Positions 18,501 through 39,114 of a DNA stretch of 39,114 nucleotides are shown in pieces; position 1 is the stretch's first letter; each line of letters opens with the position of its first letter. This DNA comes from an uncultured bacterium. Its GTDB lineage: Bacteria > Bacillota > Clostridia > Lachnospirales > Lachnospiraceae. Under the pieces are notes generated by a model. That model saw nothing but the letters and a program-made list of their open reading frames with translations, ran no database searches and was not told the origin of the DNA. The position numbers and the translations under genes are program-made. Location: assembly GCA_947651225.1 (NCBI GenBank), contig CANSYK010000031.1, forward strand, positions 1 to 39,114, in the 5' to 3' direction.

Positions 18501-19094
18501 CTACAGACCCACCGGTACTTTTGTCTCCTCTGGTGCCACTGACCCTTCTGGTTCCGGTGTTGCTGCTTCATCTGGTACTGCCGTTTCTTCCGTTCCTGGT
18601 GTTGCTGTTCCATCTGGTGCTGCCGTTTCTTCCGCTCCTGGTGCATCTGTTTCATCTGGCACCACTGTTGGCATCGGTGTTTCTGTTGGCTTTGGTGTTG
18701 GCTTTGGCTTCTGGTACTTGCCAATCTTAACTACTGCTGAAAATTTACCATACGTAATTCTATAATTATTAGTTGTCCGAAATGCACGAACCTTTACATA
18801 ATATGCTTTACTGGATTTCAGTTTCTTTAGTTTGCAAGTCTGTGCCCTAATTCCATCTACCTGCTTATATTTTCCATTTTTAGAAGTCGAAAGCCAAATC
18901 TGGTATCCTGTTACGTTTCCCTTTTTCGCAATTTTAATTGTAGCTGTTGTTTTTGTACGTTTTGTTACAGTAACAGACGGCTTTGGCAGTGATGCCGCCT
19001 CTGTTCCTGATGATGCAAAAATTCCAACACAAATTGCTGTAAGCAGCAGGAACAAAATGCCAAATTGTACTGCTTTTTTTCTTTTCTCTGTCAT
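18501..19094 (-). CDS. Secreted Fn3-domain protein with Pro/Thr/Glu-rich tail
   Basis: A 197-residue exported protein. Residues 1-34 form a signal peptide (KRKK, then FGILFLLLTAICVGIF, with a cleavage-like TEAAS). Residues 37-130 resemble a fibronectin type III domain (GYQIWLSTSKNGKY, AYYVKVRAF), similar to the Fn3 module ending the galactanase at 31805-35022. Residues 130-197 are a low-complexity tail made partly of 14-residue repeats (GAEETAAPDGTATP). No sortase motif, membrane anchor or enzyme domain is seen, so how it is retained is unknown. GGAGGG lies five bases upstream. The gene is 49 bp from serS. Confidence 0.75.
   Translation of the reverse strand: MTEKRKKAVQFGILFLLLTAICVGIFASSGTEAASLPKPSVTVTKRTKTTATIKIAKKGNVTGYQIWLSTSKNGKYKQVDGIRAQTCKLKKLKSSKAYYVKVRAFRTTNNYRITYGKFSAVVKIGKYQKPKPTPKPTETPMPTVVPDETDAPGAEETAAPDGTATPGTEETAVPDEAATPEPEGSVAPEETKVPVGL
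18556..18670 (-). repeat. 42-bp tandem repeats in the Fn3 protein tail
   Basis: Two full 42-bp units (18556-18597 and 18598-18639) and a partial third. The unit length is a multiple of three, so copy-number change would alter tail length without breaking the frame. Confidence 0.75.
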
Positions 19095-21999: not shown

Positions 22000-22989
22000 T
22001 TATTCCGCAAATCCATTTGGATGATTTTTATGCCACTTCCAGGCAGTTTCAATAATTTCCTCCAAATCAGCATGCTCTGGCTTCCAGCCAAGAACTTCTT
22101 TTGCCTTTGCACTGGATGCAATCAGCTTTGCAGGATCTCCGCTGCGGCGTGGCGCAACAACTGCTGGAATTGGATGACCTGTCACCTTACGTGCTGTCTC
22201 AATAACCTCTTTTACTGTGAATCCAACCCCATTTCCAAGGTTAAACACATTGCTTTCTTTTCCATCCATTAAATATTTCATTGCAAGAATGTGTGCCTGT
22301 GCAAGATCTGTTACATGAATATAATCTCGCACACAGGTTCCGTCCTTTGTGTCATAATCATCCCCAAAGATATTAATTGCCTCACGCTGTCCATTCGGCA
22401 CCTGAAGAATCAATGGAATCAAATGACTTTCTGGATTGTGCGCTTCTCCAATATGACCGTCTACATGTGCCCCACAGGCATTGAAATAGCGCAGCGCCAC
22501 ATAACGCAAGCCATGTGCAACCCCTGTCCATTTCATCATTTTTTCCATCGAAAGTTTTGTCTCTCCATATGGATTTGTCGGCTCAGTACGGTCTGTTTCC
22601 AAAATCGGAATACTCTCTGGTTCCCCATAAGTTGCTGCCGTTGAAGAAAATACGATCTTATCAACATCATGTGCAACCATACTCTGCAACAGAACTTTCG
22701 TCCCATTCAGATTGTTGTCATAATATTTCAAAGGATCAGTCATGCTTTCTCCCACCAGAGAATTTGCCGCAAAATGGATTACCCCATCAATCTTTTCCTT
22801 TTCAAAAACGCTGTCCACAAATGCACGGTCACGGATATCCCCCTGATAAAAAACCGCCTTCGGATGAACTGCCTCAATATGCCCTGTTTCAAGGTTGTCT
22901 ACAATCACAACCTCTTCCCCTGCATCAATTAATTCACTAACCGTATGGGAACCAATATAACCTGCCCCTCCAAGTACTAATACTTTCAT
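22000..22989 (-). CDS. galE: UDP-glucose 4-epimerase
   Basis: A 329-residue short-chain dehydrogenase-type epimerase interconverting UDP-galactose and UDP-glucose. The NAD-binding GGAGYIGSH is at residues 7-15; the catalytic Ser-Tyr-Lys set is in FSSTAATYG and NPYGETK. The start at 22989 is preferred over the longer frame (23016) because GGAGG lies seven bases upstream. It is the last gene of GH53-galT-galK-galE. Confidence 0.97.
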   Translation of the reverse strand: MKVLVLGGAGYIGSHTVSELIDAGEEVVIVDNLETGHIEAVHPKAVFYQGDIRDRAFVDSVFEKEKIDGVIHFAANSLVGESMTDPLKYYDNNLNGTKVLLQSMVAHDVDKIVFSSTAATYGEPESIPILETDRTEPTNPYGETKLSMEKMMKWTGVAHGLRYVALRYFNACGAHVDGHIGEAHNPESHLIPLILQVPNGQREAINIFGDDYDTKDGTCVRDYIHVTDLAQAHILAMKYLMDGKESNVFNLGNGVGFTVKEVIETARKVTGHPIPAVVAPRRSGDPAKLIASSAKAKEVLGWKPEHADLEEIIETAWKWHKNHPNGFAE

Positions 22990-23017
22990 CTTTATACCTC
23001 CATTCCTGTCATTCACA

Positions 23018-24181
23018 TTAAAATGTTACTGGGCCATCTCCAATATCTACTACATAAAAATCAGCCGCATAGCCAATTTTCTCTTCATACTCTCTTCCCA
23101 CTTCGCTAATAAAATTATCTACCTTATCTTCTTCTACAATGCTGACTGTGCACCCGCCAAAGCCGGCTCCGGTCATTCGGGAACCAATTACACCTTCCTG
23201 CCTCCATGCTGCTTCCACCATAGTATCCAGCTCAATCCCTGTCACTTCATAATCCTTGCTAAGTGATACATGGGACTCATTCATTAATTTACCAAACAAT
23301 GCAATATTATTGTTATTTAAAGCCTCAACCGCTTTTATGGTTCTCTGGTTTTCATATACAGCATGCTTTGCACGGCGTATTCTTACTTCATCCTGAATTG
23401 CTAGCTTATGCTCTTCAAATTGCTCCTCTGTCAGTTCTCCAAGACTCTTGATCTCCACTTCTTTTTGCAACTCAGCAAGAGCTGTTTCACACTCACTTCG
23501 CCGCTCATTGTATTTAGAATCACCAAGGCCACGCTTTTTATTCGTGCAGCCAATCACGATTTTTGCGCCATCCAGCTTTACCGGAGCATATTGATAAGAT
23601 AAATCTGCCGTATCAAGGAAAATAGCATGATCCTTTTTCCCCATTGCAATGGCGAACTGATCCATAATTCCACAGTTTACCCCATTAAATTTGTTTTCAG
23701 AATACTGTCCAATTAACGCCAGATCCTGATTACTTACCTCAAAACCATAAAAGTCACGCAGAATATGGCCTGTCAGAACTTCTACGGAAGCAGAAGAAGA
23801 AAGCCCAGAGCCATTTGGAATATTACCAAATAAAAGCAAATCCATTCCACAGTCTACGGAATAACCTTTTTCCTGAAAAGCCCACATAACCCCCTTTGGG
23901 TAATTTGTCCAATCTGCTTCCTTTTCTGGCTTTAACCCTTCCACAGAAGATTCCAATACCCCAAGCTCTTCAAAATTCATGGAGTAAAAGCGCAGCACTT
24001 TGTCCTCTCTTTTTCTTGCCACACCATAAGTTCCAATCGTCAGCGCACAGGGAAATACGTGACCACCATTGTAATCGGTATGTTCTCCAATCAGATTGAC
24101 ACGTCCTGGCGCAAAATAAACCTTAGCTCCTTCAGCGTCACCAAAAACTTCTGTAAATTTTTCCAATACTTCTTTTTTCAT
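23018..24181 (-). CDS. galK: Galactokinase
   Basis: A 387-residue GHMP kinase phosphorylating galactose at C1. The family signature GRVNLIGEHTDYNGG lies near residue 25, the ATP loop PNGSGLSSSASVE near 122, and GAGFGGCTVS near 340. The start at 24181 (MKKEVLEKF) is preferred to 24193 because GGAG lies six bases upstream of it. It sits 36 bp after galT and 28 bp before galE. Confidence 0.97.
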   Translation of the reverse strand: MKKEVLEKFTEVFGDAEGAKVYFAPGRVNLIGEHTDYNGGHVFPCALTIGTYGVARKREDKVLRFYSMNFEELGVLESSVEGLKPEKEADWTNYPKGVMWAFQEKGYSVDCGMDLLLFGNIPNGSGLSSSASVEVLTGHILRDFYGFEVSNQDLALIGQYSENKFNGVNCGIMDQFAIAMGKKDHAIFLDTADLSYQYAPVKLDGAKIVIGCTNKKRGLGDSKYNERRSECETALAELQKEVEIKSLGELTEEQFEEHKLAIQDEVRIRRAKHAVYENQRTIKAVEALNNNNIALFGKLMNESHVSLSKDYEVTGIELDTMVEAAWRQEGVIGSRMTGAGFGGCTVSIVEEDKVDNFISEVGREYEEKIGYAADFYVVDIGDGPVTF

Positions 24182-24217
24182 CGCAATCTCCATTTCTATG
24201 CTAATCCTACCATTTTC

Positions 24218-25714
24218 CTACAAAGTTTCAACAAAACGTCCAAAGGCTTCCCTTCCCTCAGGAGTACATTTATAAACACCTGCATTTTCCAGAACGTGTA
24301 CAAAGACCTCGCCAACCTCTGTCTTCAGAATCTCCATAATATTTTCTGATGTGACAGAATCGTATTTCGGAAGAAATTCTTCTACCCAATCCGCATGCTT
24401 TTCCAATTCCTTATCTGCACGAATATCTTTCTTTGCAAGAATCGCATCTGCAAGATCTGCAAGCTCCTGCTTCAACCTGGCCGGAAGCACTGCAAGCCCC
24501 ATTACCTCAATCAGGCCGATGTTTTCCTTTTTAATATGATGATATTCGCTGTGTGGGTGATATACCCCAAGAGGACATTCTTCTGTAGTAATATTATTCC
24601 TCAAGGTTAAATCCAATTCAAACAAATCCCCCTTCATACGGGCAATTGGTGTCACTGTATTATGCGGTTCCCCATCTGTTTCTGCCAGAATAAACGCCTC
24701 CTCATCTGTATAACCTCTCCAACAGTCTGTAATATGGGTTGCCAAATCAATCAAACACCCTGCATCCTTTGACTGAATCCTGATAACTGACAATGGCCAT
24801 TTTACAATACCAGCAGTCACATCTTCATATCCCGGAATCGTAAAATTCTTTTCAAAATCAGCCTTTGCCATGGCAAAGTCATAATGTCCGCCCTGATAAT
24901 GGTCGTGGCTTAAAATAGAGCCGCCCACAATCGGAAGGTCTGCATTCGAACCCATAAAATAATGAGGAAACTGTTTTACAAAATCAAACAATTTTACAAA
25001 GGTCGCCCTCTCTATTTTCATAGGAACATGCTGTCCATTAAATAAAATACAATGTTCATTATAATATCCATATGGAGAATACTGCAACCCCCAATCCGTA
25101 TCATTTATTGTCAAAGGAATAATACGGTGTGTTTCACGGGCTGGGTGGCTTACATGGCCTGCATATCCTACATTTTCAATACAAAGCAGGCACTTAGGAT
25201 AACCACTCTGTTTCGCATTTTTTGCCGCTGCAATTGCCTTTGGATCTTTTTCCGGCTTTGAAAGATTAATAGACAAATCAATCACGCCATATGGGCTGTC
25301 AACTGTCCAACGTATGTCTTTACAAAGGCGGTATCTGCGGATATAATCTGTATCCTGGCTGAACTTATAAAAATAATCTGTCGCCGCTTCCGGTGATTCT
25401 TTATACTTTTCCCAGAATTTTTGAATCACCTGTGCTGGTCTTGGCACCAAAGTATTCATAATCTTTGTATCAAACAAATCACGGAATACAATACTATCCT
25501 CTACCAATCCCTTCTCTACGGCAATATCTAAAAGTTCCGACAATGTTTCTTCTAAATTAATGCCTGTTGGGATATTTTCTGGTGCTTCATACTCTCTTTC
25601 CCCAAACAAATCCAGCAATAGATTTGTCGCATAAACCGTTTCAGCTTTGGTAAGCAATTCAGCTTCCAGACCATACTGCACTAACTTTGCTATACTTTCA
25701 TCCAATTTACCCAT
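24218..25714 (-). CDS. galT: Galactose-1-phosphate uridylyltransferase, class II
   Basis: A 498-residue Firmicutes-type (class II) GalT, longer than the 350-residue enterobacterial class. It transfers UMP from UDP-glucose to galactose-1-phosphate. The nucleotidyl-transfer histidine region is visible as SHDHYQGGHYDF near residue 276. GGAGG lies eight bases before the ATG at 25714; the open frame runs five codons further. It follows the intracellular GH53 gene on the same strand. Confidence 0.96.
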   Translation of the reverse strand: MGKLDESIAKLVQYGLEAELLTKAETVYATNLLLDLFGEREYEAPENIPTGINLEETLSELLDIAVEKGLVEDSIVFRDLFDTKIMNTLVPRPAQVIQKFWEKYKESPEAATDYFYKFSQDTDYIRRYRLCKDIRWTVDSPYGVIDLSINLSKPEKDPKAIAAAKNAKQSGYPKCLLCIENVGYAGHVSHPARETHRIIPLTINDTDWGLQYSPYGYYNEHCILFNGQHVPMKIERATFVKLFDFVKQFPHYFMGSNADLPIVGGSILSHDHYQGGHYDFAMAKADFEKNFTIPGYEDVTAGIVKWPLSVIRIQSKDAGCLIDLATHITDCWRGYTDEEAFILAETDGEPHNTVTPIARMKGDLFELDLTLRNNITTEECPLGVYHPHSEYHHIKKENIGLIEVMGLAVLPARLKQELADLADAILAKKDIRADKELEKHADWVEEFLPKYDSVTSENIMEILKTEVGEVFVHVLENAGVYKCTPEGREAFGRFVETL

Positions 25715-25751
25715 TACATTAACCTCCATCCATTTTTCATTTCTAATACAC

Positions 25752-25793: not shown

Positions 25794-26897
25794 TTATGCT
25801 TGGAAATCCCGAATCACTGCCAGAGCCGGCAGCGCATTGCCGTCATAATCAAACAAAGCCTGATTCGCCCATTCATTTCCGCCCGGTCCTGCTTCCCCTG
25901 TATAAGCAAGCGCTGCTTCTGTCGCCCAGCCACAGCCCGGCACCGGAATCCATCCTGGCTCCCAGTAAAAGAAACCGCAGCCTTTAGGTACAGAGGAAAT
26001 CCTTCCCATAACATCCTTCATAAAATCCGCCTGCCCCTCTTTTGTCATAGGGTATTGCAGCCCTTCTACAAGCTTCGGGCTTGTTGCCATTCCCTTCCGC
26101 TCTTCTGGTGCCAATTCCTCATACTCTTCATAACTTTCCATCGTAAAGCCCATAGAAACCTCTGCCACAATCAGTTCCTTTTGATAACGTTTTGCCATGT
26201 CCCTCATATTGTATTCCAGTTCATCCAACGTTCCATGCCAAAAAGGATAATAAGACAAACCAATAATTTGAAAATCTTCTCCCCGTTTGATAAAATTATC
26301 AAACCATTCACGATACATTTCATTATTTCCGCCATTATCCAGATGTATCATAATTGGAATATCCTGGTCAACCGAACGTACCGCACGGATGCCTGCATTG
26401 ATATAACGGGCAATCGTATCAAACTCCGGCTTTTTGCCTGTCGGCCACAAAAGACCATTTGTCAGTTCATTCCCAACCTGAACCATTGTTGGTGCCGCAT
26501 GGTTTTTCATCAGCGTTTCCATTGTTTCTTTTGTAAAGTCATAAACTGCCTGTTCCAGTCTTTCCATACCATAATCCTTCCATGCCTTTGGCACAGTCTG
26601 TTTTCCCGGATCTGCCCAGAAATCACTGTAATGAAAATCCAATAAAAATCCCATATCAAGTTTCAAAGCACGTTTTGCCATAACAAGCGTCTTTTCCAAA
26701 TCATTTGTACCAGCACCATAAGGAGTGCCATCCTCTGCATATGGATCATTCCAAAGACGAAGCCGGACATAATTTGCACCATAGGACTTCAAAATTTCCA
26801 ACAAGTCGCCTTCTTTTCCATTATCATAATAATGTGCACCACATACTTCCTGTTCAATCAAGGTAGAAATATCCATTCCCTTAATAAATTCTGCCAT
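25794..26897 (-). CDS. Cytoplasmic endo-beta-1,4-galactanase, GH53
   Basis: A 367-residue GH53 enzyme without a signal peptide or accessory domain, so it should act inside the cell on imported galacto-oligosaccharides. The fold markers are RLRLWNDPY, LLDFHYSDFWADPGKQ and FFYWEPGW. The general acid is Glu144 (VQVGNELTNG) and the nucleophile Glu246 (IVAEVSMG). GGAGG six bases before the ATG at 26897 sets the start. It is followed by galT, galK and galE, coupling oligosaccharide cleavage to the Leloir pathway. A hairpin at 26947-26990 separates it from the upstream genes. Confidence 0.93.
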   Translation of the reverse strand: MAEFIKGMDISTLIEQEVCGAHYYDNGKEGDLLEILKSYGANYVRLRLWNDPYAEDGTPYGAGTNDLEKTLVMAKRALKLDMGFLLDFHYSDFWADPGKQTVPKAWKDYGMERLEQAVYDFTKETMETLMKNHAAPTMVQVGNELTNGLLWPTGKKPEFDTIARYINAGIRAVRSVDQDIPIMIHLDNGGNNEMYREWFDNFIKRGEDFQIIGLSYYPFWHGTLDELEYNMRDMAKRYQKELIVAEVSMGFTMESYEEYEELAPEERKGMATSPKLVEGLQYPMTKEGQADFMKDVMGRISSVPKGCGFFYWEPGWIPVPGCGWATEAALAYTGEAGPGGNEWANQALFDYDGNALPALAVIRDFQA

Positions 26898-26946
26898 ATC
26901 ATTCCTCCATAGCGGCAATTACTTTCATCGCAATTTTTCATTCTAT

Positions 26947-26998: not shown

Positions 26999-27211
26999 TT
27001 AATCGAAATCGGTGATTCGTTCTAACATCTTACGATAACGGAAACGTACCATTTCATTCTTTTCCAAAACATCCTTTTCACTGCCTGTGTACTGACACCG
27101 CATACAGTAGTATTCCTTTTTATCTTTATCATAAAACATATCAATATCCAAATCACGCATAAAGCAGGAAGGACATCTAAAATTTAATTTGCCTTTTCCA
27201 GATTGAGCCAT
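26999..27211 (-). CDS. Small zinc-ribbon protein
   Basis: A 70-residue protein with two CxxC knuckles, Cys13-Pro-Ser-Cys16 and Cys36-Met-Arg-Cys39, spaced as in zinc ribbons, then a charged helical tail (KNEMVRFRYRKMLERITDF). The start overlaps the end of the 613-residue gene by 28 bp, and AAGGAGG lies ten bases upstream, so translation is probably coupled. I do not recognise a named family. A partner or regulatory role for its neighbour is inferred from the overlap only. Confidence 0.7.
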   Translation of the reverse strand: MAQSGKGKLNFRCPSCFMRDLDIDMFYDKDKKEYYCMRCQYTGSEKDVLEKNEMVRFRYRKMLERITDFD

Positions 27212-29025
27212 GTTGCAAATACCTCCTTATCACTGATTTTCTTCTGATATCCCAAAGTAAACATTGGCGAGAATGCATAACCTTCTCTGATATAGCCCTC
27301 TGCATCTGCTGCATCCGTGCTTAAAGATACCTTCGTCTCAATAGCAGGAATCACTGCGGCTGCACTTTTCGCCCCAGCCATAGCTTCTTCCCTGCACTTA
27401 TATTCATAAGTAAGCGATTTTGTCTCGCCCTCCTTATCAAGAGAAAGGATAATTCCGTTCATATCTTCTGGATATTCTGTTGTACCATAGCAGGCAACTA
27501 TATACCCATTGATTGTAACATCAGCATCTGGATTACTCATTTCCAGAATATTTCTTTCAATCTTAATATTAGAAGCGCCTTCCTCAAAATAAATCTTTGT
27601 CTGTATCTTTACCGTTAAATCATAGAACTCGATTTCCACCGGATCTAATGTAAGGATTCTTGTACCACCCTCTTGCGAAAAGCTTGCATGAGTACGGCAC
27701 AGACACAAATCTACTTCTTCTCCGTTATAGCATACTTTAGCGCTCCGAACAGTGCCTTCGCCCGCATAGTGTGTAAAGTAACCCGCACGATATTTTTCCT
27801 GAATCAGGAATGGATAGGAAGCATCCTGTACATGCTTTGTTCCAATTCCCACTTCCCATTTTAATTTTGCGGCATATGGTCTGAGATCAACAATCGCACC
27901 ACCCTGATCCATATTTACACAAGCTCTCATATAAGGATCTGCATACCAGAAAAGCTGTTTATCAGAACCATATAAAATATCCTTCCAAAGCGCACATTCC
28001 GGCTCCGTATAACTCTTATTTTCACGATAATAATCAGCAAACTCAGCCATTGTCATATCAACCAGCTTGCCCTCTTTTTTAAGCTGTCCATAATATGCCA
28101 TGCCATCTTCATAAGACTTAGCAAGCAGTTCATATGGAGCTTCCCAGCGTCCCATTTTGTTAAGCCAGCCAGGTCCTACAAACATCATATTATACGCATA
28201 GCCATTGTTGTATTTTTCCAGATGGCGGTACTGATCAATCAAATTGTAAAGATATGGATATTCCCACTTTTCACTGTCATAAATCATACCACGAAGTACA
28301 TTCTGCGGATGAGTACCAAAGTTGGAACCATTTCCATCATAGCATGCTAACAGGTCACGTGACAGATGCGGAATCGCTACGATACCACTGTCCTCTGCCT
28401 CATTTGCCGCTGGAGCATGGGTATTCTGTTTGGAAGGAATCCATGGATTCCATGGGCCGCCATCAAACAACGTATACCAGGAATTGTTACAAGTATGGTA
28501 CGCCTTAGGTCCCTCTTCCCAACAGGTAGCAATCGCACATTTTACCATTGGATATTTTTCTTTAATGTAGTTTGTCAGTTCTGCGTCCATATAATAAGAG
28601 CCAGTAGACTCTGGATAAAAACCAAAACGGTCATAAAACTTTCCAAATATATCGTCTACAATACTCTTTTTATCCTCCATAGAAAACATCCAAATACAGA
28701 AATCTTTTGTTTTATATTTCTCACGAAACTCTTTACATGGAAGTCCCAAAAGAGAAAGCGCAATTTCATCACCGTACTTTTCATGGTGCTCTTTTGCAAT
28801 CGCAACCGCCTCGTCATTAAAGAGGCTGGCATATGTCATTTGAATCGTTACTTTTAAATTATTTTTATGAGCCGTTTCCTGCTGAAACTTAAAGATATCC
28901 AAAGACTCTGTAAGCAGTGCTTTCTTTCCAATATCCTCCGCTTTTCCTTGTCTGGTTACTTTTTCCGCATATTCTGGAACCATTTCCGGACGATGGATAA
29001 TATTTACAACAAATGTATTTTCCAT
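27184..29025 (-). CDS. Uncharacterised 613-residue protein of the galactan locus
   Basis: A cytoplasmic protein (no signal peptide) between the solute-binding lipoprotein and the zinc-ribbon gene. Residues 1-260 read like a (beta/alpha) barrel of the polysaccharide-deacetylase or GH57 type: LKVTIQMTYASL, CIWMFSMEDKKSIVDDIFGKFYDRFGFYPESTGSYY with a NodB-like spacing, then IPHLSRDLLACYDGNG. Residues 400-613 look like beta-sandwich. The layout recalls the paired DUF3863/DUF3864 proteins, but that is from memory. AAGGAG lies seven bases before the ATG. A carbohydrate-active enzyme for an imported galactan fragment is plausible; the reaction is unknown. Confidence 0.75.
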   Translation of the reverse strand: MENTFVVNIIHRPEMVPEYAEKVTRQGKAEDIGKKALLTESLDIFKFQQETAHKNNLKVTIQMTYASLFNDEAVAIAKEHHEKYGDEIALSLLGLPCKEFREKYKTKDFCIWMFSMEDKKSIVDDIFGKFYDRFGFYPESTGSYYMDAELTNYIKEKYPMVKCAIATCWEEGPKAYHTCNNSWYTLFDGGPWNPWIPSKQNTHAPAANEAEDSGIVAIPHLSRDLLACYDGNGSNFGTHPQNVLRGMIYDSEKWEYPYLYNLIDQYRHLEKYNNGYAYNMMFVGPGWLNKMGRWEAPYELLAKSYEDGMAYYGQLKKEGKLVDMTMAEFADYYRENKSYTEPECALWKDILYGSDKQLFWYADPYMRACVNMDQGGAIVDLRPYAAKLKWEVGIGTKHVQDASYPFLIQEKYRAGYFTHYAGEGTVRSAKVCYNGEEVDLCLCRTHASFSQEGGTRILTLDPVEIEFYDLTVKIQTKIYFEEGASNIKIERNILEMSNPDADVTINGYIVACYGTTEYPEDMNGIILSLDKEGETKSLTYEYKCREEAMAGAKSAAAVIPAIETKVSLSTDAADAEGYIREGYAFSPMFTLGYQKKISDKEVFATWLNLEKAN

Positions 29026-29052: not shown

Positions 29053-30324
29053 CTAATCGACAGGAGCTGTAATTCCTTCAACAGCCGTATCCAAAAGCTC
29101 CTGTAATTTTATTTTGCCAGAATTTCCTTCCACCAAAATTGCGCCAAGTGTCTTTGCCGGGTCCCAGAAGTTATCTCCAACCCTTTGGAGTGTCGCAAAC
29201 CGGGATTGCAAAGCAAGCGCCGCAATTGCCGGATTTTCTTTTACCTCTTCTGAATCTGCCGCCATTACATTGGAAGGCCCAAGCCCCCTGACTTTAAAAC
29301 GCTTTACCTGGTTGTCATAATTTGTTAAATACCGTGCAAGCTTCATGGCAGCTTCAACATTCTTCGAATAGGCGTTTACCCCTATCAGCTTGTAACCTGC
29401 ATAACTTGCCATTTGAACCTGTTCACCTGCACATGTATATGTTGGCAGCTTTGTGGCAGCATAGTTATCTCCCCATGCTTTTTCCACTTCTGCCGCATTC
29501 CATGTGCCACTGACTCCGGCAATAATAGAACCATCCTTTACACCTTTAAGGAACTCAACATCCTGAACATTCTTAAAGCCTTCACTGCCTGTGATATCCA
29601 ATATCGCCTGTGCCACGTCTGTACCTTTGTACTCTCCATCTGTAGCATTCCAATTGCAGATATTTGTCCCATCCTCAACTTTTGACAACTCTAAACCTGC
29701 ACCGGCAAAAAATGACAGAATATAGTAACCATCATCAACTGTCATAGAAACCTTTTTCTTTTTAGCCTCTGCAATTTTAAGCATAGTATCCAAAGTGGCC
29801 ACATCTTCTTCTGATTTAAAATATTTATTATTGTAAAACATGAAATAGCCATTATCAGCCGTCATTGGATAGGCATACAGCCTCCCGTCTCTGGAAGCCG
29901 CATTAACCGCAGCACTTTCCTCTCCACCATTTTCCTCAATCACCTGATCCACATCCAGTGTGATTTCATGCAATGTATTGCCCTCCAGCAAATCATCGAA
30001 CTGATCGTCCGCAAATGCAAAAAGATCTCCTGCCATCTCTGGATCATTTAATACATCATCCTTTGCGTCCTTTTCAGACTCCATACTGAGTTTGATGTTC
30101 CAGCCTGCCACCTCGGTATATTCCTTTTGGAAACTTTCAATCATTTCACCTAACATCACCTGATCATCCTCGGCGCCCCAAACAGTTAATGCAACACCTT
30201 CTTCTTCGTCCTCTTTCGATACACCTGATTTCTGCACATCCTCTTCCTTTGAAGAACCACAGCCAGAAAAACAGGTGAGAGCAATTGTGCCTGCCATTGT
30301 TAATGCAAGTAGCTTTTTCTTCAT
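29053..30324 (-). CDS. Sugar ABC transporter solute-binding lipoprotein
   Basis: A 423-residue extracellular solute-binding protein of the MalE-like (CUT1) type. Signal peptide MKKKLLALTMAGTIAL with lipobox FSGC, lipid-modified Cys22. The mature part has the typical LTVWGAEDDQVMLGEMIESFQKEY start. The locus points to galacto-oligosaccharides as ligand. Permease genes normally follow directly, but none is present in this window. GAAGGGGG precedes the start. It is the first gene after a strong promoter (30464-30492) with a LacI-type operator, so it heads the intracellular part of the locus. Confidence 0.9.
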   Translation of the reverse strand: MKKKLLALTMAGTIALTCFSGCGSSKEEDVQKSGVSKEDEEEGVALTVWGAEDDQVMLGEMIESFQKEYTEVAGWNIKLSMESEKDAKDDVLNDPEMAGDLFAFADDQFDDLLEGNTLHEITLDVDQVIEENGGEESAAVNAASRDGRLYAYPMTADNGYFMFYNNKYFKSEEDVATLDTMLKIAEAKKKKVSMTVDDGYYILSFFAGAGLELSKVEDGTNICNWNATDGEYKGTDVAQAILDITGSEGFKNVQDVEFLKGVKDGSIIAGVSGTWNAAEVEKAWGDNYAATKLPTYTCAGEQVQMASYAGYKLIGVNAYSKNVEAAMKLARYLTNYDNQVKRFKVRGLGPSNVMAADSEEVKENPAIAALALQSRFATLQRVGDNFWDPAKTLGAILVEGNSGKIKLQELLDTAVEGITAPVD

Positions 30325-30429: not shown

Positions 30430-30457
30430 TTGCGCAAATTGCGCAATCGGTTGTTCC
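30430..30457 (-). promoter_or_regulatory. Predicted LacI-family operator at the binding-protein promoter
   Basis: It contains TTGCGCAA twice (30430-30437 and 30439-30446) and, at 30440-30457, TGCGCAATCGGTTG followed by TTCC, a match to the operator at 35096-35113 at 13 of 18 positions. It covers the predicted transcription start. The divergence is in the distal half-site. Confidence 0.6.
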
Positions 30458-30550: not shown

Positions 30551-31612
30551 TTATTGTGTGGAACCCTTCAGAATCATCTCATATCCCAACAGTCTTTTCC
30601 TTTGCACTTCTTTGCCGGAAATATAGTCAAACAAAGTTTTGCAGGCGACCGTTCCAAGCTCTTTTGGATCATATTGCAGTGATGTAATAGACGGATGATA
30701 ATTATCCAAAATAGCACTGTTATAAAACGATGCTACTTTCACCTGCCCTGGAATATCAATTCCATCCTGTGCAAGCTTATTTAACACATACTGACAGATT
30801 TTATCATCTGTGCAGACAATACATTCTACCTTTCCCCGAATGCATTCTTCCACCGCATGCTCTACTGACTGCTCTGATTCGCAATCCATATAAACCCTGC
30901 TCTGACTGACAGCCGCCCCCTGTTCCTGAAGCCCCAGCTCAAAGCCCTGATACCTTGTCTGATTGACCACCTGGTTCATGCCTCCGCCAATCAGGGCAAA
31001 GCTCTTTATTCCTTTTATCCTCAAGATAGAGGTCAGTTCCCGGCAGGCATTAATATGGTCATTGTCAATCTGAATCACATCCTCCACCATCGAACTGCCA
31101 ATTACCACAAAAGGCATGCCACTTTCCTTGAGGTAGCTGACCCCCTCATCCTTCACCAGAGTTCTTCCCACAATCACACCATCTACTTTACGGTTTTTCA
31201 CAATTCTCTTTAACTGGGAAATATCTCGTTCAAAGACCATCGATATCAGAATGTCATAATCTTCTGCCATTGCAACTTCGCTCACTCCTATCATGCATCT
31301 TTGAAAAAACGGCAAATCTGTCAACCCCGAATCACCTGGAATTACCCAGCCAATGTTATAAGTTTTCGAGTTAGCAAGCCCTTTTGCTACAACATTGGGC
31401 CGATAATGGTATCGCTTAATATATTCCATCACCCGCTGCCTTGTACCCTCACTGATTCTGCCTTTACCGGAAATCGCGCGTGATACAGTTGTTTTAGACA
31501 CCCCCAGCGCTTCTGCTACATCATCAATCGTAATTTTATTCTGCTCTTTTTCCAAATGTACTGTAATATTTTCCAATGCAGAATCTGTCGTATTTTTTTC
31601 CTCCTGCGCCAT
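30551..31612 (-). CDS. LacI-family transcriptional regulator
   Basis: A 353-residue regulator. The helix-turn-helix TIDDVAEALGVSKTTVSRAIS lies near residues 28-48, after an unusual 25-residue N-terminal extension (most LacI proteins start at the helix-turn-helix). The rest is a periplasmic-binding-protein-like sugar-sensing domain. It lies between the secreted galactanase and the solute-binding protein genes, both of which carry TGCGCAA-type operators, so it is the likely repressor, relieved by galactose or a galacto-oligosaccharide. No matching operator is seen before its own gene. AAGGAG lies 11 bases upstream. Confidence 0.9.
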   Translation of the reverse strand: MAQEEKNTTDSALENITVHLEKEQNKITIDDVAEALGVSKTTVSRAISGKGRISEGTRQRVMEYIKRYHYRPNVVAKGLANSKTYNIGWVIPGDSGLTDLPFFQRCMIGVSEVAMAEDYDILISMVFERDISQLKRIVKNRKVDGVIVGRTLVKDEGVSYLKESGMPFVVIGSSMVEDVIQIDNDHINACRELTSILRIKGIKSFALIGGGMNQVVNQTRYQGFELGLQEQGAAVSQSRVYMDCESEQSVEHAVEECIRGKVECIVCTDDKICQYVLNKLAQDGIDIPGQVKVASFYNSAILDNYHPSITSLQYDPKELGTVACKTLFDYISGKEVQRKRLLGYEMILKGSTQ

Positions 31613-31804: not shown

Positions 31805-34800
31805 TTATTTTACTTTAACATTTACTGTTTTGCTATAAGCTCCCGTTACTTTTTTCGCACCATTCTTTGCATAAGCACATACTCTGATATAGTATGTCTT
31901 TTTGCTCTTCAGGTTTTTTAATACCTTAGAAGTTTTACTTACTGTTACTTTTTTCGCATTTTTAAAGTTCTTTGATGTGCTGTATTGCACTTGATAGCCT
32001 GCTGCCTTCGCAGCTTTCTTCCAGCTCACTGTTACTTTCTTCTTTGCAGCTTTTGCTTTTACACCACTTACTTTCTTTGGCTTAACAGTAATTGTAATTT
32101 TCTTGGAAGCTGCTGTATACTTGTCAGTTGCTGCCGCATAAACGGTAATAACAGCTACGCCAGCTCCTTTAATCGTTACTTTTCCTGTTTTGCTGACAGT
32201 TGCTACAGCTTTGTTGTCTGTTTCATAAGTAAGTGCTCCCTCTGCTTTCGCATTTAATGTAAACGCTTTATTGCCATATGTCTTTGTGTAACTTGACTTT
32301 CCGGCAATAACCTGTTCAATTAATTCTGGAACACCTGGGACGTATTCACTGTTCAGATACAGAGAAGCATCATCCATGGTTCCCCATGCTCCGGCATTCA
32401 TTGCAGCATCTACAGTTAATGTAATGGTGTTTTGTCCGTTTTTAATCATATCCTCTGAAACAAAGATATCATTTACTTTTACCTGCTTCCAGCCAAGGCA
32501 GCCAGTAAGCATTGTACTTTCGGAAGAATATTCTTTTCCATCCCCAGTCACTGCCACAAGCTTCAGGCTTTCCCCTTCTCTTGTTCCTGCACTGGCAAGT
32601 CCCTGCATATAAATAAACGCATTGTAATGTCCTGCTTTTGTCACGGTAGTCGTCGTTGATGCCGTAAACTTAAAATCAGAATCGCTGTAGAAATGCAGAC
32701 ACATTTCTCCTGATCTTTTATCTTCTCCTGATTTGACAGCTCCGCCTTCTCCTGTTACCGTCCATGCAGAACCTTTATTTTCAAATCCCGGATCTGACAA
32801 TAAATTTGCTCCAACCACGTTTACTGTCACAACAACTGCATAAGAAGCATCGTCTGCTAATGTACCATTGATGGTGTAAGTACCAATTCCTACAGTAGTT
32901 GCTGCTGACTCATTTACTTTTGCCACATCTTCTTTGTTCCAGTTTACTTCTTTTTCCGCTTCGGAAGAATCATTATAAGTTACCGTAATCTTTGGCAAAA
33001 ATTCATCTACTGTCTGACCTGCTTCAATACTGATTTCCGCAGAAGTGTATCCATCCGGCTTAACCACAGAAGCCTCTGCCCCATACTTTAAGCAATCAGG
33101 ATTGTATACATCTAATACCGGAAGCGGATTGCCGTTAAAGTCGAATACACTCTGGTTCGTCATGCCGCTTCCTCCCCACCAGAGACCAGCATCATCCGGA
33201 TCATATTCTACAGAGTAACTACTTGCCCAGCCAGAGCCGCATTCTACATCAAGCACTTTATTATCTGCTTCAATCTTCTCTGCATCTGCTTTCAGATTGC
33301 CATTTTCATCATATACTGTCATTGCTGATATCCATGCAGGCTCCCAATAGAAGAAACCAAGCGCTGCTTTCTCTCCATTAGAAAGAGTGACATCAACATT
33401 ATTTACTGCATTGGCAACATCTCTGACTTCGTTTGCCTGCCCCTGAACAGTAACATTGTAATTCACATAATCCCCTGTTCTGAAATCAGACTGATTTGCT
33501 GTATGGCCAAGCTTATAAGTATTTGCCCATGAAGTTTCTGCGACCATAACATATTTATCATATGTCTTTGCCACATCAGACAACACATTGGTAAGATTTT
33601 CCATTGTACCATGAGAGTTTGGATAATAAGAAGAAGCAAACAAATCGTAGCTTACGCCTTCTTTTGTCCCATCTCCATCACCATCATAATCATCAAGATT
33701 TGCTGCATAGCTCATCAAAAGCCCGTCTTTTTCCGGATTGGTAAAATGAACTGCTGCAAGGATATTCTTGTCGATTGCATGGACTGCATCACAGCCGGCA
33801 TCAAAAATCCTGTTCATATCCGCCCATTCTGTTACACCACAGACATGCCCATTTGTCTCATTACCAACCTGCACCATAGCTACATCAACGCCATTATCTT
33901 TTACCAGTTTAGTAAGGGAGTCCGTAATATAATCTGAAACCGCTGTAACCTTCTGGTCAACTGTATAGTCGGCCCATGCCTTTGGCGCTTTCTGTTTTCC
34001 CGGATCTGCCCAGAAGTCAGAAAGATGGAAATCAATCAGAACCTTCATTCCGGCCTTTGTTACATATTTTCCCATTTCAATTGCCGTATCAAGATCATTG
34101 TTACCACCGCCATAGCTTTTTCCATTGGCGTCATATGGATTATTCCATACACGGATACGAATATAGTTCACACCAGACTTTGCAAGGAAATCAAAGAATC
34201 CCTGCTCGTCAAGCACCTTTCCGTCCTTGTCCTTGAATCCTATCTTGTTAATCTCCTCTTCACTTGCTCCAGCAGCCTTCATGTTTTCTCTTACCTTCTC
34301 ATATGCTTTCATAATACTAAGATAAGAAGAAACATCCATACCACGGATTGATTTTTCATCATAATTATCAATTTTTTTAATAAACAGCTCTGAAGGAATT
34401 GCCGGCTCGGAAGGAGGTGCCGTTTCTGTTGGATCGGATGACTCCACAGGAGGAGCCGGCGTTTCCTTAGAATCACTGCTTACAGCTTTGATACTGATAT
34501 TGTCAATGTGTCCCCATGCTTTGGCTTTACATTCTACATATACGCCAACTTCCACATTTGTCATATTTTCAGCAATGACAAATGTACCACTGCTCTCTGT
34601 CCAGTTCCCCCAGCCGGAATTTTCCTGAACTACATCACCTTTTTCCCCATTCAGGTAGACATAAACTTTTTCCCCATCAGCACCCTGTGACTGTGCTGTT
34701 ACCTTATACGTCCCAGCAGGAAGGCTTTCAATCACCTGAACACACTTGAACTCAATATCCGCATCCTCATTATAGAAATTTAATGCCTTGCCCCCAGTTT

Positions 34801-35022
34801 CTTCTTTTACTTCAAATGTCCCCGGTGCCGGTTCAGCCGTCCAGCCGTCCAGCCGTCTGTTCCATTTTCAAAATCCCCATTTACCAGTGCGATTTTCCCT
34901 TCCTTCTTAATAGAAGAAACTTTTCCTGCCGCTTCTGTCACAGAAACAATCCCCGGCTGTGTCAAAAGCATAGCCGCCCCCAGCAGACACGCCGCTACAC
35001 GCTTCATAATTTTTTTCCTCAT
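31805..35022 (-). pseudogene. Secreted multidomain GH53 galactanase, frameshifted by an 8-bp repeat
   Basis: As sequenced, the 5' frame starts at 35022 (GGAGG six bases upstream), encodes a signal peptide and stops after about 70 residues; the rest lies in another frame (31805-34735). Removing one of three 8-bp units at 34834-34857 joins them into a 1069-residue protein: signal peptide (1-32), galactan-binding-like module (42-180), Pro-rich linker, GH53 (about 210-645; acid Glu386 in VGNETNG, nucleophile Glu493 in VAETSWA), Ig-like (655-735), CBM61-like module (737-892), BIG2-like (895-980) and Fn3 (980-1069). It would cut beta-1,4-galactan outside the cell. No cell-wall anchor is seen. The repeat suggests phase variation; decay or a sequencing error is possible. 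Confidence 0.85.
34834..34857 (-). repeat. Three tandem 8-bp units (GACGGCTG) that break the galactanase frame
   Basis: Plus strand CAGCCGTC at 34834-34841, 34842-34849 and 34850-34857. With two copies (or five) the flanking frames join as DGWTAEPAPGTFEVK; with three they do not. Confidence 0.9.
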
Positions 35023-35046
35023 ATACATCCTCCAATCTTCACCTGT

Positions 35047-35080
35047 TTTTCTGACAAAACCCTATTTCCTTATCAGAAAA
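35047..35080 (-). promoter_or_regulatory. Stem-loop in the galactanase leader
   Basis: Arms TTTTCTGA (35047-35054) and TCAGAAAA (35073-35080) with an 18-nt loop. It lies between operator and start codon, in the same place as the leader stem-loop of the binding-protein gene. Confidence 0.35.
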
Positions 35081-35095
35081 GATTTTAAGAACCAA

Positions 35096-35113
35096 TGCGC
35101 AACCGTTTGCGCA
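35096..35113 (-). promoter_or_regulatory. Predicted LacI-family operator at the galactanase promoter
   Basis: Minus strand TGCGCAAACGGTTGCGCA: 7-bp inverted arms TGCGCAA/TTGCGCA with a central CG, the form typical of LacI-family operators. It spans about -1 to +17. Confidence 0.75.
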
Positions 35114-35118
35114 AAATC

Positions 35119-35147
35119 AGTATAACATCTTTTGCCCAGATTTTCAA
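35119..35147 (-). promoter_or_regulatory. Promoter of the secreted galactanase gene
   Basis: On the minus strand: -35 TTGAAA (35142-35147), a 17-bp spacer, -10 TATACT (35119-35124). It starts 10 bp after the GH2 stop codon. Ten-bp direct repeats (CCCAGATTTT on the plus strand, 35135-35144 and 35150-35159) overlap the -35 region. Confidence 0.75.
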
Positions 35148-35157
35148 CACCCAGATT

Positions 35158-38217
<3,060 letters not shown>

Positions 38218-38309: not shown

Positions 38310-39027
38310 CTAAAAAAATAGTTTTGTAGTCAGCCCTAATACCAGAAGATGCACAGGATAAAAGATATAGTAAGCATATTTAGGTAATTTGTCTTTTCGC
38401 TCCCCACTGTAAAGCCATATCAGATAAAATGCAATCGGACAGGTAAGGTATACTACCTCTGCTATAATTCCCAAAAGACTGGCAGCAATCCCCAAAACCG
38501 TCCTCACTCCACCTCTTTTCCGAAAAATATAAAATATTGCCACCAACAATACAATACAAAGGCCATACCGTGCCCTCAATATTGCAGCCCACCCCACAGC
38601 ACATAAAACAATGACAACCTCCCCCAGCCGATAAACTATGCCTTTTTTATCCTCATACATTTTAATAAAATACAACATTAAAAGGCTTATGCCCAGGCTC
38701 ATCATAGCATTTTGACTGGGACCAGTCAAACACTTTCTGGCTATTTGCCAGATCATAAGGTATTTCGCTAATCAAAGCAAAAAAGATAATGGAAAGAAGA
38801 TAACTTCTGTAACTCGAAGTTTTTCGGAATCCTTCAACCAGCAAAAAGGCAAATACTGGAAGGGCAAGGCCCCCAATAAGCTGCAATACAGAGCTCACTC
38901 CAGACAATACCATAAGCTGTGAGTTCTTCTCCATTGCTGCTGACAATTCTGCCTGTGTATACTGATCAAGATTTATCAGCCCTTTCTGTATAATTGTAAC
39001 TCCTATTGTCTGTGCTAATAAAATCAC
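38310..39027 (-). pseudogene. TraX-family membrane protein, frameshifted
   Basis: Two overlapping frames (38662-39027 and 38310-38756) together give one TraX-like protein with several membrane helices: GGLALPVFAFLLVEGFRKTSSYRSYLL, then FALISEIPYDLANSQKVFDW in the first frame and SQNAMMSLGISLLMLYF through AYYIFYPVHLLVLGL in the second. Deleting one C in the CCC near 38720 would join them. TraX-like proteins resemble acyltransferase membrane proteins; function in Firmicutes is unclear. The 5' end is uncertain: the coding sense (SISADGLKIFAG) continues upstream to about 39065, but an ATG at 39073 is in another frame. Confidence 0.7.
38711..38730. repeat. Inverted repeat at the TraX frameshift
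   Basis: TTTGACTGG GA CCAGTCAAA: perfect 9-bp arms around two bases, exactly where the reading frame breaks. Confidence 0.75.
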
Positions 39028-39114
39028 ACCAGCAAAAATTTTCAGCCCATCTGCCGAAATACTAGTACTCCATCCGGGCAGAAATTACAGTTTTGTTTTG
39101 GCAGGCACTGATGC

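Follow-up and report, generated by a model that had tools for sequence, protein, structure and literature searches.

Does the 8-bp tandem repeat within the secreted galactanase gene of this Lachnospiraceae genome switch the enzyme on and off, or does it mark the loss of the enzyme? To address this question, we analyzed the whole stretch of DNA (the window), which is one entire contig (C31, 39,114 bases) of a draft genome (4.38 Mb in 167 contigs, 96.7% complete). The gene consists of the following features.

34807–35022, minus strand: 71-amino-acid frame with a signal-like peptide and the start of an N-terminal domain, ending at a stop just past the array
34834–34857, minus strand: array of three perfect tandem 8-bp units, GACGGCTG on the minus strand, within the codons of a DGWTA motif
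31805–34834, minus strand: stop-free catalytic frame of 1009 amino acids with the rest of the N-terminal domain, GH53, Big_4 and fn3

Starting from the ATG at 35022 on the minus strand, ahead of which a GGAGG ribosome site is visible by eye, the shorter frame encodes a signal-like peptide (also judged by eye), NGDFENGTDGWTA, 11 more residues and a stop; we take the domain that starts here for a carbohydrate-binding one. The catalytic frame contains a full-length GH53 domain (profile positions 1–339), an fn3 domain and a Big_4 match of 21.4 bits, just below the cut-off of 22.1. The catalytic domain expected for a secreted GH53 endo-galactanase is thus complete, but the signal peptide lies in another frame. 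Tandem Repeats Finder and the sequence itself gave 3.0 copies of an 8-bp unit with 100% matches at 34834–34857, and a unit of this length alters the reading frame, as it does in phase-variable loci mediated by simple sequence repeats (SSRs). The D-G-W-T-A codons presumably recur after eight bases by coincidence. A preliminary description of the locus had stated that the signal-peptide frame and the catalytic frame are offset by exactly one unit, and both the frames themselves and the open two-copy gene of a relative (see below) bear this out. Its further statements, that two copies give a protein of 1069 residues and that the frames agree at two or five copies, are right as arithmetic on the still unjoined frames, and the rest of the gene is indeed free of stops from the array to 31805.

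We scanned a genome collection for homologs with the catalytic frame as the query and retained the best 80 of 192 relatives. Only two of these 80 were close, at 74% and 60% identity by best segment; the nearest two by GH53 protein were Lachnoclostridium sp. UBA7097 and Bacterium D16-36, and many further GH53 relatives in this set were labelled Lachnospiraceae. A DNA search of 28 genomes of the genus gave matches in four, the window's own genome included, and one match covered only 27 bases. IMG/VR contained no relatives that we could find, and plasmids yielded nothing beyond pieces of 69–72% identity in three records. UBA7097 carries one open gene of ~1113 residues, read as a whole in one frame from the upstream ATG, with two perfect copies of GAAGGCTG at the array site; the letters at this site are identical in the UBA7097 locus (L002) and in G004:C131. 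Over the coding stretch aligned with UBA7097, the 8-base gap was the only one whose length was not a multiple of three, the cut-off end aside. The gene in the window is therefore broken in frame in one genome and matched by an intact ortholog in a relative, as is expected of a pseudogene, and this comparison suggests that two copies are likely the older, working state. Moreover, the two UBA7097 units share one C-to-A change relative to the two units they were compared with in the window, which both lack it. As this change was found at 20 of 251 second codon positions of the gene pair, an independent second change would have a chance of about 8%, making the shared difference a weak hint of unit turnover. 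Bacterium D16-36 has a different N-terminal domain at the array position, and G002 shares the N-terminal domain (66% identity) but without the tandem.

The gene lies in a galactan cluster with the following components.

35158–38199, minus strand: GH2 beta-galactosidase, intact
35119–35147, minus strand: sigma-70-like promoter match, TTGAAA-17-TATACT with TG before the −10 element (pattern match)
35096–35113, minus strand: perfect palindrome resembling a LacI operator, between the promoter match and the gene
30551–31612, minus strand: LacI-family regulator
29053–30324, minus strand: extracellular solute-binding protein, distant to GanS (93.7 bits, cut-off 700)
27184–29025, minus strand: 613-amino-acid protein, unmatched in Pfam and NCBIfam and strongly conserved in the vicinity of GH53 genes
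25794–26918, minus strand: second GH53, 374 amino acids, profile 1–339, no signal peptide seen, intact
24218–25729, minus strand: galactose-1-phosphate uridylyltransferase
23018–24193, minus strand: galactokinase
22000–23016, minus strand: NAD-dependent epimerase, likely UDP-galactose epimerase, with the exact function taken from context

The profile match of the second, inner GH53 is full (C31:25815–26885), and we found no gene for a permease among these components. The preliminary description had pointed to an intact promoter and operator. A promoter-like site and a palindrome are present, but the promoter pattern was matched once against 0.7 matches expected in shuffles, which is no better than chance; the palindrome at 35096–35113 resembles an operator of the LacI type. 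A search with a pattern built from this palindrome itself gave a single new match, at 30440–30457 with three mismatches, upstream of the binding-protein gene, and at least two matches occurred in 1 of 100 shuffles. Gene order differs between the relatives. In G006 (C56, L192), the LacI gene directly follows the GH2 gene, with no secreted GH53 between them, unlike in the window (31805–38199), while in UBA7097 (L086) a TraX-like gene is directly followed by the GH53 gene. This placement suggests that the gene for the secreted GH53 is accessory and that its position varies from species to species.

We also made several observations on other genes of the window. The 613-residue protein (27184–29025) had no Pfam match even at an E value of 5 and no NCBIfam match at 0.001, is 96.6% identical to its G006 counterpart (pN/pS 0.028), and occurs at 60% identity or more in at least 46 of the 80 GH53 loci (the best 80 of 192), often adjoining the GH53 gene. 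Its structure model, of low confidence (mean pLDDT 64), weakly matched GH57/GH38-like and deacetylase barrels and galactose-mutarotase-like sandwiches (best E value 2e-10, TM ~0.3), so that it may be a carbohydrate enzyme, as yet unclassified, that belongs to galactan loci. A gene at 38310–39063, which resembles the gene upstream of the UBA7097 GH53 and appears TraX-like, is split into two frames that meet near 38720, less than 400 bases from the contig end; the split could be either decay or an end-of-contig error. A small gene for an fn3-like protein (18501–19094; 24.1 bits, cut-off 25) contains imperfect 42-bp and 24-bp repeats and differs in length in G006.

The catalytic frame has no further stop and a pN/pS of 0.21 against UBA7097, close to the values of three intact neighbors (GH2, 0.20; binding protein, 0.17; LacI, 0.16), although this comparison mixes species pairs, as the neighbors were set against G006. 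Because the rest of the gene is about as constrained as these neighbors, the frame break looks recent. The preliminary description had likewise argued against an old break. Constraint has not relaxed after the break by this measure, an effect that a recent break would not yet show. The three broken GH53 genes of the genome (see below) ranged from 0.12 to 0.21 and the inner GH53 stood at 0.29 with saturated synonymous sites, while the galactose-pathway genes were far more constrained (0.03–0.06). One control, a 715-residue neighbor of the C20 GH53, was left out of this comparison.

We then asked how unusual the array is. Among 422,116 bases of the genome, seven perfect arrays had at least 2.5 copies and at least 20 bp (units of 4–30), six of which keep the frame; that at 34834–34857 is the sole one with a unit that is not a multiple of three. 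Five Markov-3 simulations of the same size produced 0, 1, 0, 0 and 1 arrays with any unit. Perfect 8-bp tandems of at least two copies numbered 11 in the sample against 7–16 in the simulations, showing that the two-copy state is ordinary. The three-copy array is a single slip away from such an ordinary two-copy coding coincidence. Five added stretches, of which ~5 kb were counted twice, contained no further frame-shifting array of at least 2.5 copies, so that the one in the galactanase gene is the only one in 471,691 bases and has a copy number of just three. For this sampled part of the 4.38 Mb, a genome rich in contingency repeats is ruled out.

The genome contains four GH53 genes. The gene without a visible signal peptide is intact, and all three secreted ones, whose signal-like peptides were seen by eye, are damaged; a weak fifth match (C18) falls within a GH5 gene. 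The GH53 gene on C99 (L108, 2105–5285) has a 215-bp deletion with a frame change and lacks profile positions 193–261, while its G006 ortholog is an intact frame of 1147 codons with 86–89% identity on either side of the deletion. The gene on C20 (L127, 7116–8720) has an in-frame deletion of ~249 bp (~83 codons) at the end of the barrel, leaving profile positions 2–258 only, and its G006 ortholog is also intact (86% and 82% identity on the two sides; 81–89% for the C20 and C99 genes together). In both genes, part of the catalytic domain is thus missing. At each junction a short direct repeat can be made out by eye, imperfect in G006 (~7 of 8 letters in one case and 5 of 7 in the other), which hints at slippage as a possible origin of the deletions. 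A secreted GH5 gene on C55 (L215, 3893–6413; signal by eye) likewise carries a clean 245-bp deletion with a frame change and has an intact ortholog in G006 (C200). The three deletions are alike in size (215, ~249 and 245 bp), a likeness that is unexplained; a systematic assembly fault rather than selection is therefore possible, in which case the argument for loss would be weaker.

As a control, we paired genes of this genome with their homologs in stretches of G004 and G006, which gave 59 non-redundant pairs. Single frames with at least 85% coverage were found in 51 of them, and galK, flagged because a short match lies ahead of its start codon, is complete. Three pairs could not be judged because of low coverage (L112 2731–3231; L124 19724–19999, where a stretch ends; and the gene of low complexity at 18501–19094 of the window). 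The remaining four were broken: all three genes for secreted GH53 enzymes and, at the end of the window, the TraX-like gene. When the galactanase gene under study was excluded, both of the two other secreted GH53 genes were broken as compared with 1 of 53 other judged genes (~0.002 by a simple hypergeometric count), with controls that were mostly not secreted enzymes and stretches that were picked partly around GH53 genes. The phrase "otherwise intact" in the preliminary description is hence accurate for this gene, but it does not extend to its secreted paralogs or to the TraX-like gene. Once weak matches (26.7 bits or less) were set aside, 39 GH53 matches remained in the other 27 genomes of the genus, judged on the catalytic domain and not on N-terminal frames: 34 were near full length without a stop, one had a TGA, and four were partial (three in frames of 339–361 residues that are maybe another family, and one fragment of 55 positions). 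One G002 and one G017 match showed a stop outside the stretch counted among the 39. When the catalytic domain alone is considered, the contrast with the genus is milder: two of the four genes in this genome are defective, compared with 5 of the 39 matches elsewhere. Clear breaks were rare among the 59 gene pairs, with no sign there of general genome decay. Decay of secreted enzymes at large can be set aside as well: two GH43 and five GH5 genes look near full, so the loss is not general. Of two other GH5 matches, that on C13 is partial although its frame is open, and that on C55 is the broken gene. Each of the 11 binding-protein matches is confined to a single frame, and some of them span only part of the profile. 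Nor is there a sign of a mutator background in the MutS family, where three matches, in open frames of 922, 807 and 568 residues, span almost all of the MutS_V profile.

We propose, with a probability of roughly 60%, that the three-copy state is a null allele of recent origin, able in principle to revert, and part of a broader loss of secreted galactanase. Judging from the frames and the relative, a one-unit slip is the best account of the lesion. Slipped-strand duplication would have acted on DGWTA codons that formed a two-copy 8-bp tandem, raising the number to three. The extra unit puts the signal peptide out of register with the catalytic frame, and the product would be a 71-residue fragment, with no secreted galactanase from this gene. 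The array is one of three separate lesions that together hit every secreted GH53 found in the genome, while the signal-less GH53, beta-galactosidase, binding protein, regulator and galactose pathway are intact. With uptake presumably continuing, the cell would likely no longer attack galactan outside but live on fragments that others release. Reversion by loss of a unit would probably be more frequent than point reversion, and the three-copy allele may be a minority state.

The slipped-strand phase switch favored by the preliminary description would require slippage between two and three copies so often that a single population maintains both producers and scavengers. The frame offset by one whole unit, the unit length that is not a multiple of three, the position of the array between signal peptide and enzyme and the seemingly recent break all agree with such a locus, and the C-to-A difference shared by the UBA7097 units fits unit turnover, weakly given the ~8% chance. 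Nevertheless, we consider it unlikely. The array has three units only, stands alone as a frame-shifting array in the sampled bases, has no counterpart in the next relative, G002, and occurs in a genome whose near-complete MutS-family matches give no sign of a mutator. Moreover, the other two secreted GH53 genes carry deletions that cannot revert, and loss of the trait thus fits better than reversible control. Since the intact signal-less GH53 belongs to the same cluster, an "off" state would remove extracellular attack only. Somewhat more doubtful still is the idea that this gene is the last recoverable secreted galactanase, in which the array would let single scavenger cells regain the enzyme by one slip and so serve as a low-frequency, heritable public-good reserve.

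A sequencing or assembly artefact, with a true genome that has two copies and an intact gene, also appears improbable, although the genome is a draft in 167 contigs with a second frame break within 400 bp of a contig end and three deletions of similar size elsewhere. By arithmetic, a 24-bp array of period 8 yields no repeated 21-mer, which needs 29 bp, and an ordinary short-read assembler should therefore obtain its length straight from reads. In addition, the unit is not a homopolymer, and 51 of the 59 homologous genes were clean. It is least likely that the enzyme is still made as is, either from a downstream start or by translational frameshifting. The catalytic frame does have a GTG start at 34735, but this codon follows the signal peptide, so that its product would stay inside; no slippery heptamer is visible by eye in the array, and the whole UBA7097 gene is read in one frame from its upstream ATG.

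Low-copy repeats with comparable effects are known. The mutL gene of Salmonella and E. coli contains a three-copy 6-bp repeat. When slipped-strand mispairing adds or removes one of these units, mutL is inactivated, a change that is reversible; no conversion was seen in over ten thousand colonies of non-mutator strains (PMC2955026). Like the galactanase array, it is a low-copy, perfect, short-unit tandem within coding sequence. It differs in that its 6-bp unit keeps the frame, its alternative alleles were seen in culture, and three copies are the working state in mutL but the broken state in the GH53 gene (PMC2955026). This closest experimental parallel shows that low-copy repeats of this kind flip, and that they can do so too rarely to be seen in ten thousand colonies of ordinary strains. 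SSR phase-variable loci, as outlined in a review (PMC11868660), have hypermutable repeat numbers, typically changing 100–10,000 times above the basal rate. The GH53 array resembles them, putatively, in stochastic frame switching by copy number, whereas it is known from the sequence of one genome, in contrast to their hypermutable repeat number and raised rate (PMC11868660).

Our literature search found nothing that pairs galactanase with phase variation, and among papers on phase variation with glycoside hydrolases or in gut Firmicutes none dealt with this subject, going by titles and abstract openings. The sialidase gene nanH3 of Gardnerella, going by a title, reportedly undergoes slipped-strand mispairing, which would make it a similar case of a glycosidase gene with slippage in a human-associated bacterium. 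Several GH53 genes also occur together in the arabinogalactan locus of Roseburia faecis and R. hominis, where two of three have a signal peptide; only R. faecis among the strains tested used type 1 arabinogalactan, and the excerpt of that report mentions no frame break (PMC5320581). Butyrivibrio hungatei MB2003 grows poorly on pectin or xylan alone and scavenges sugars released by B. proteoclasticus (PMC6344614). That strain, however, expresses secreted carbohydrate-active enzymes including GH53 (PMC6344614), whereas scavenging here is suggested by gene lesions.

Were the switch true, the locus would be a phase-variable polysaccharide-degrading enzyme in gut Lachnospiraceae and a direct test case of producer–scavenger mixing. 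If the gene has instead been lost, which we hold to be more likely, separate small lesions would have cost a gut bacterium every one of its secreted galactanases and left its inside pathway in place, which would be a clear genomic case for cross-feeding.
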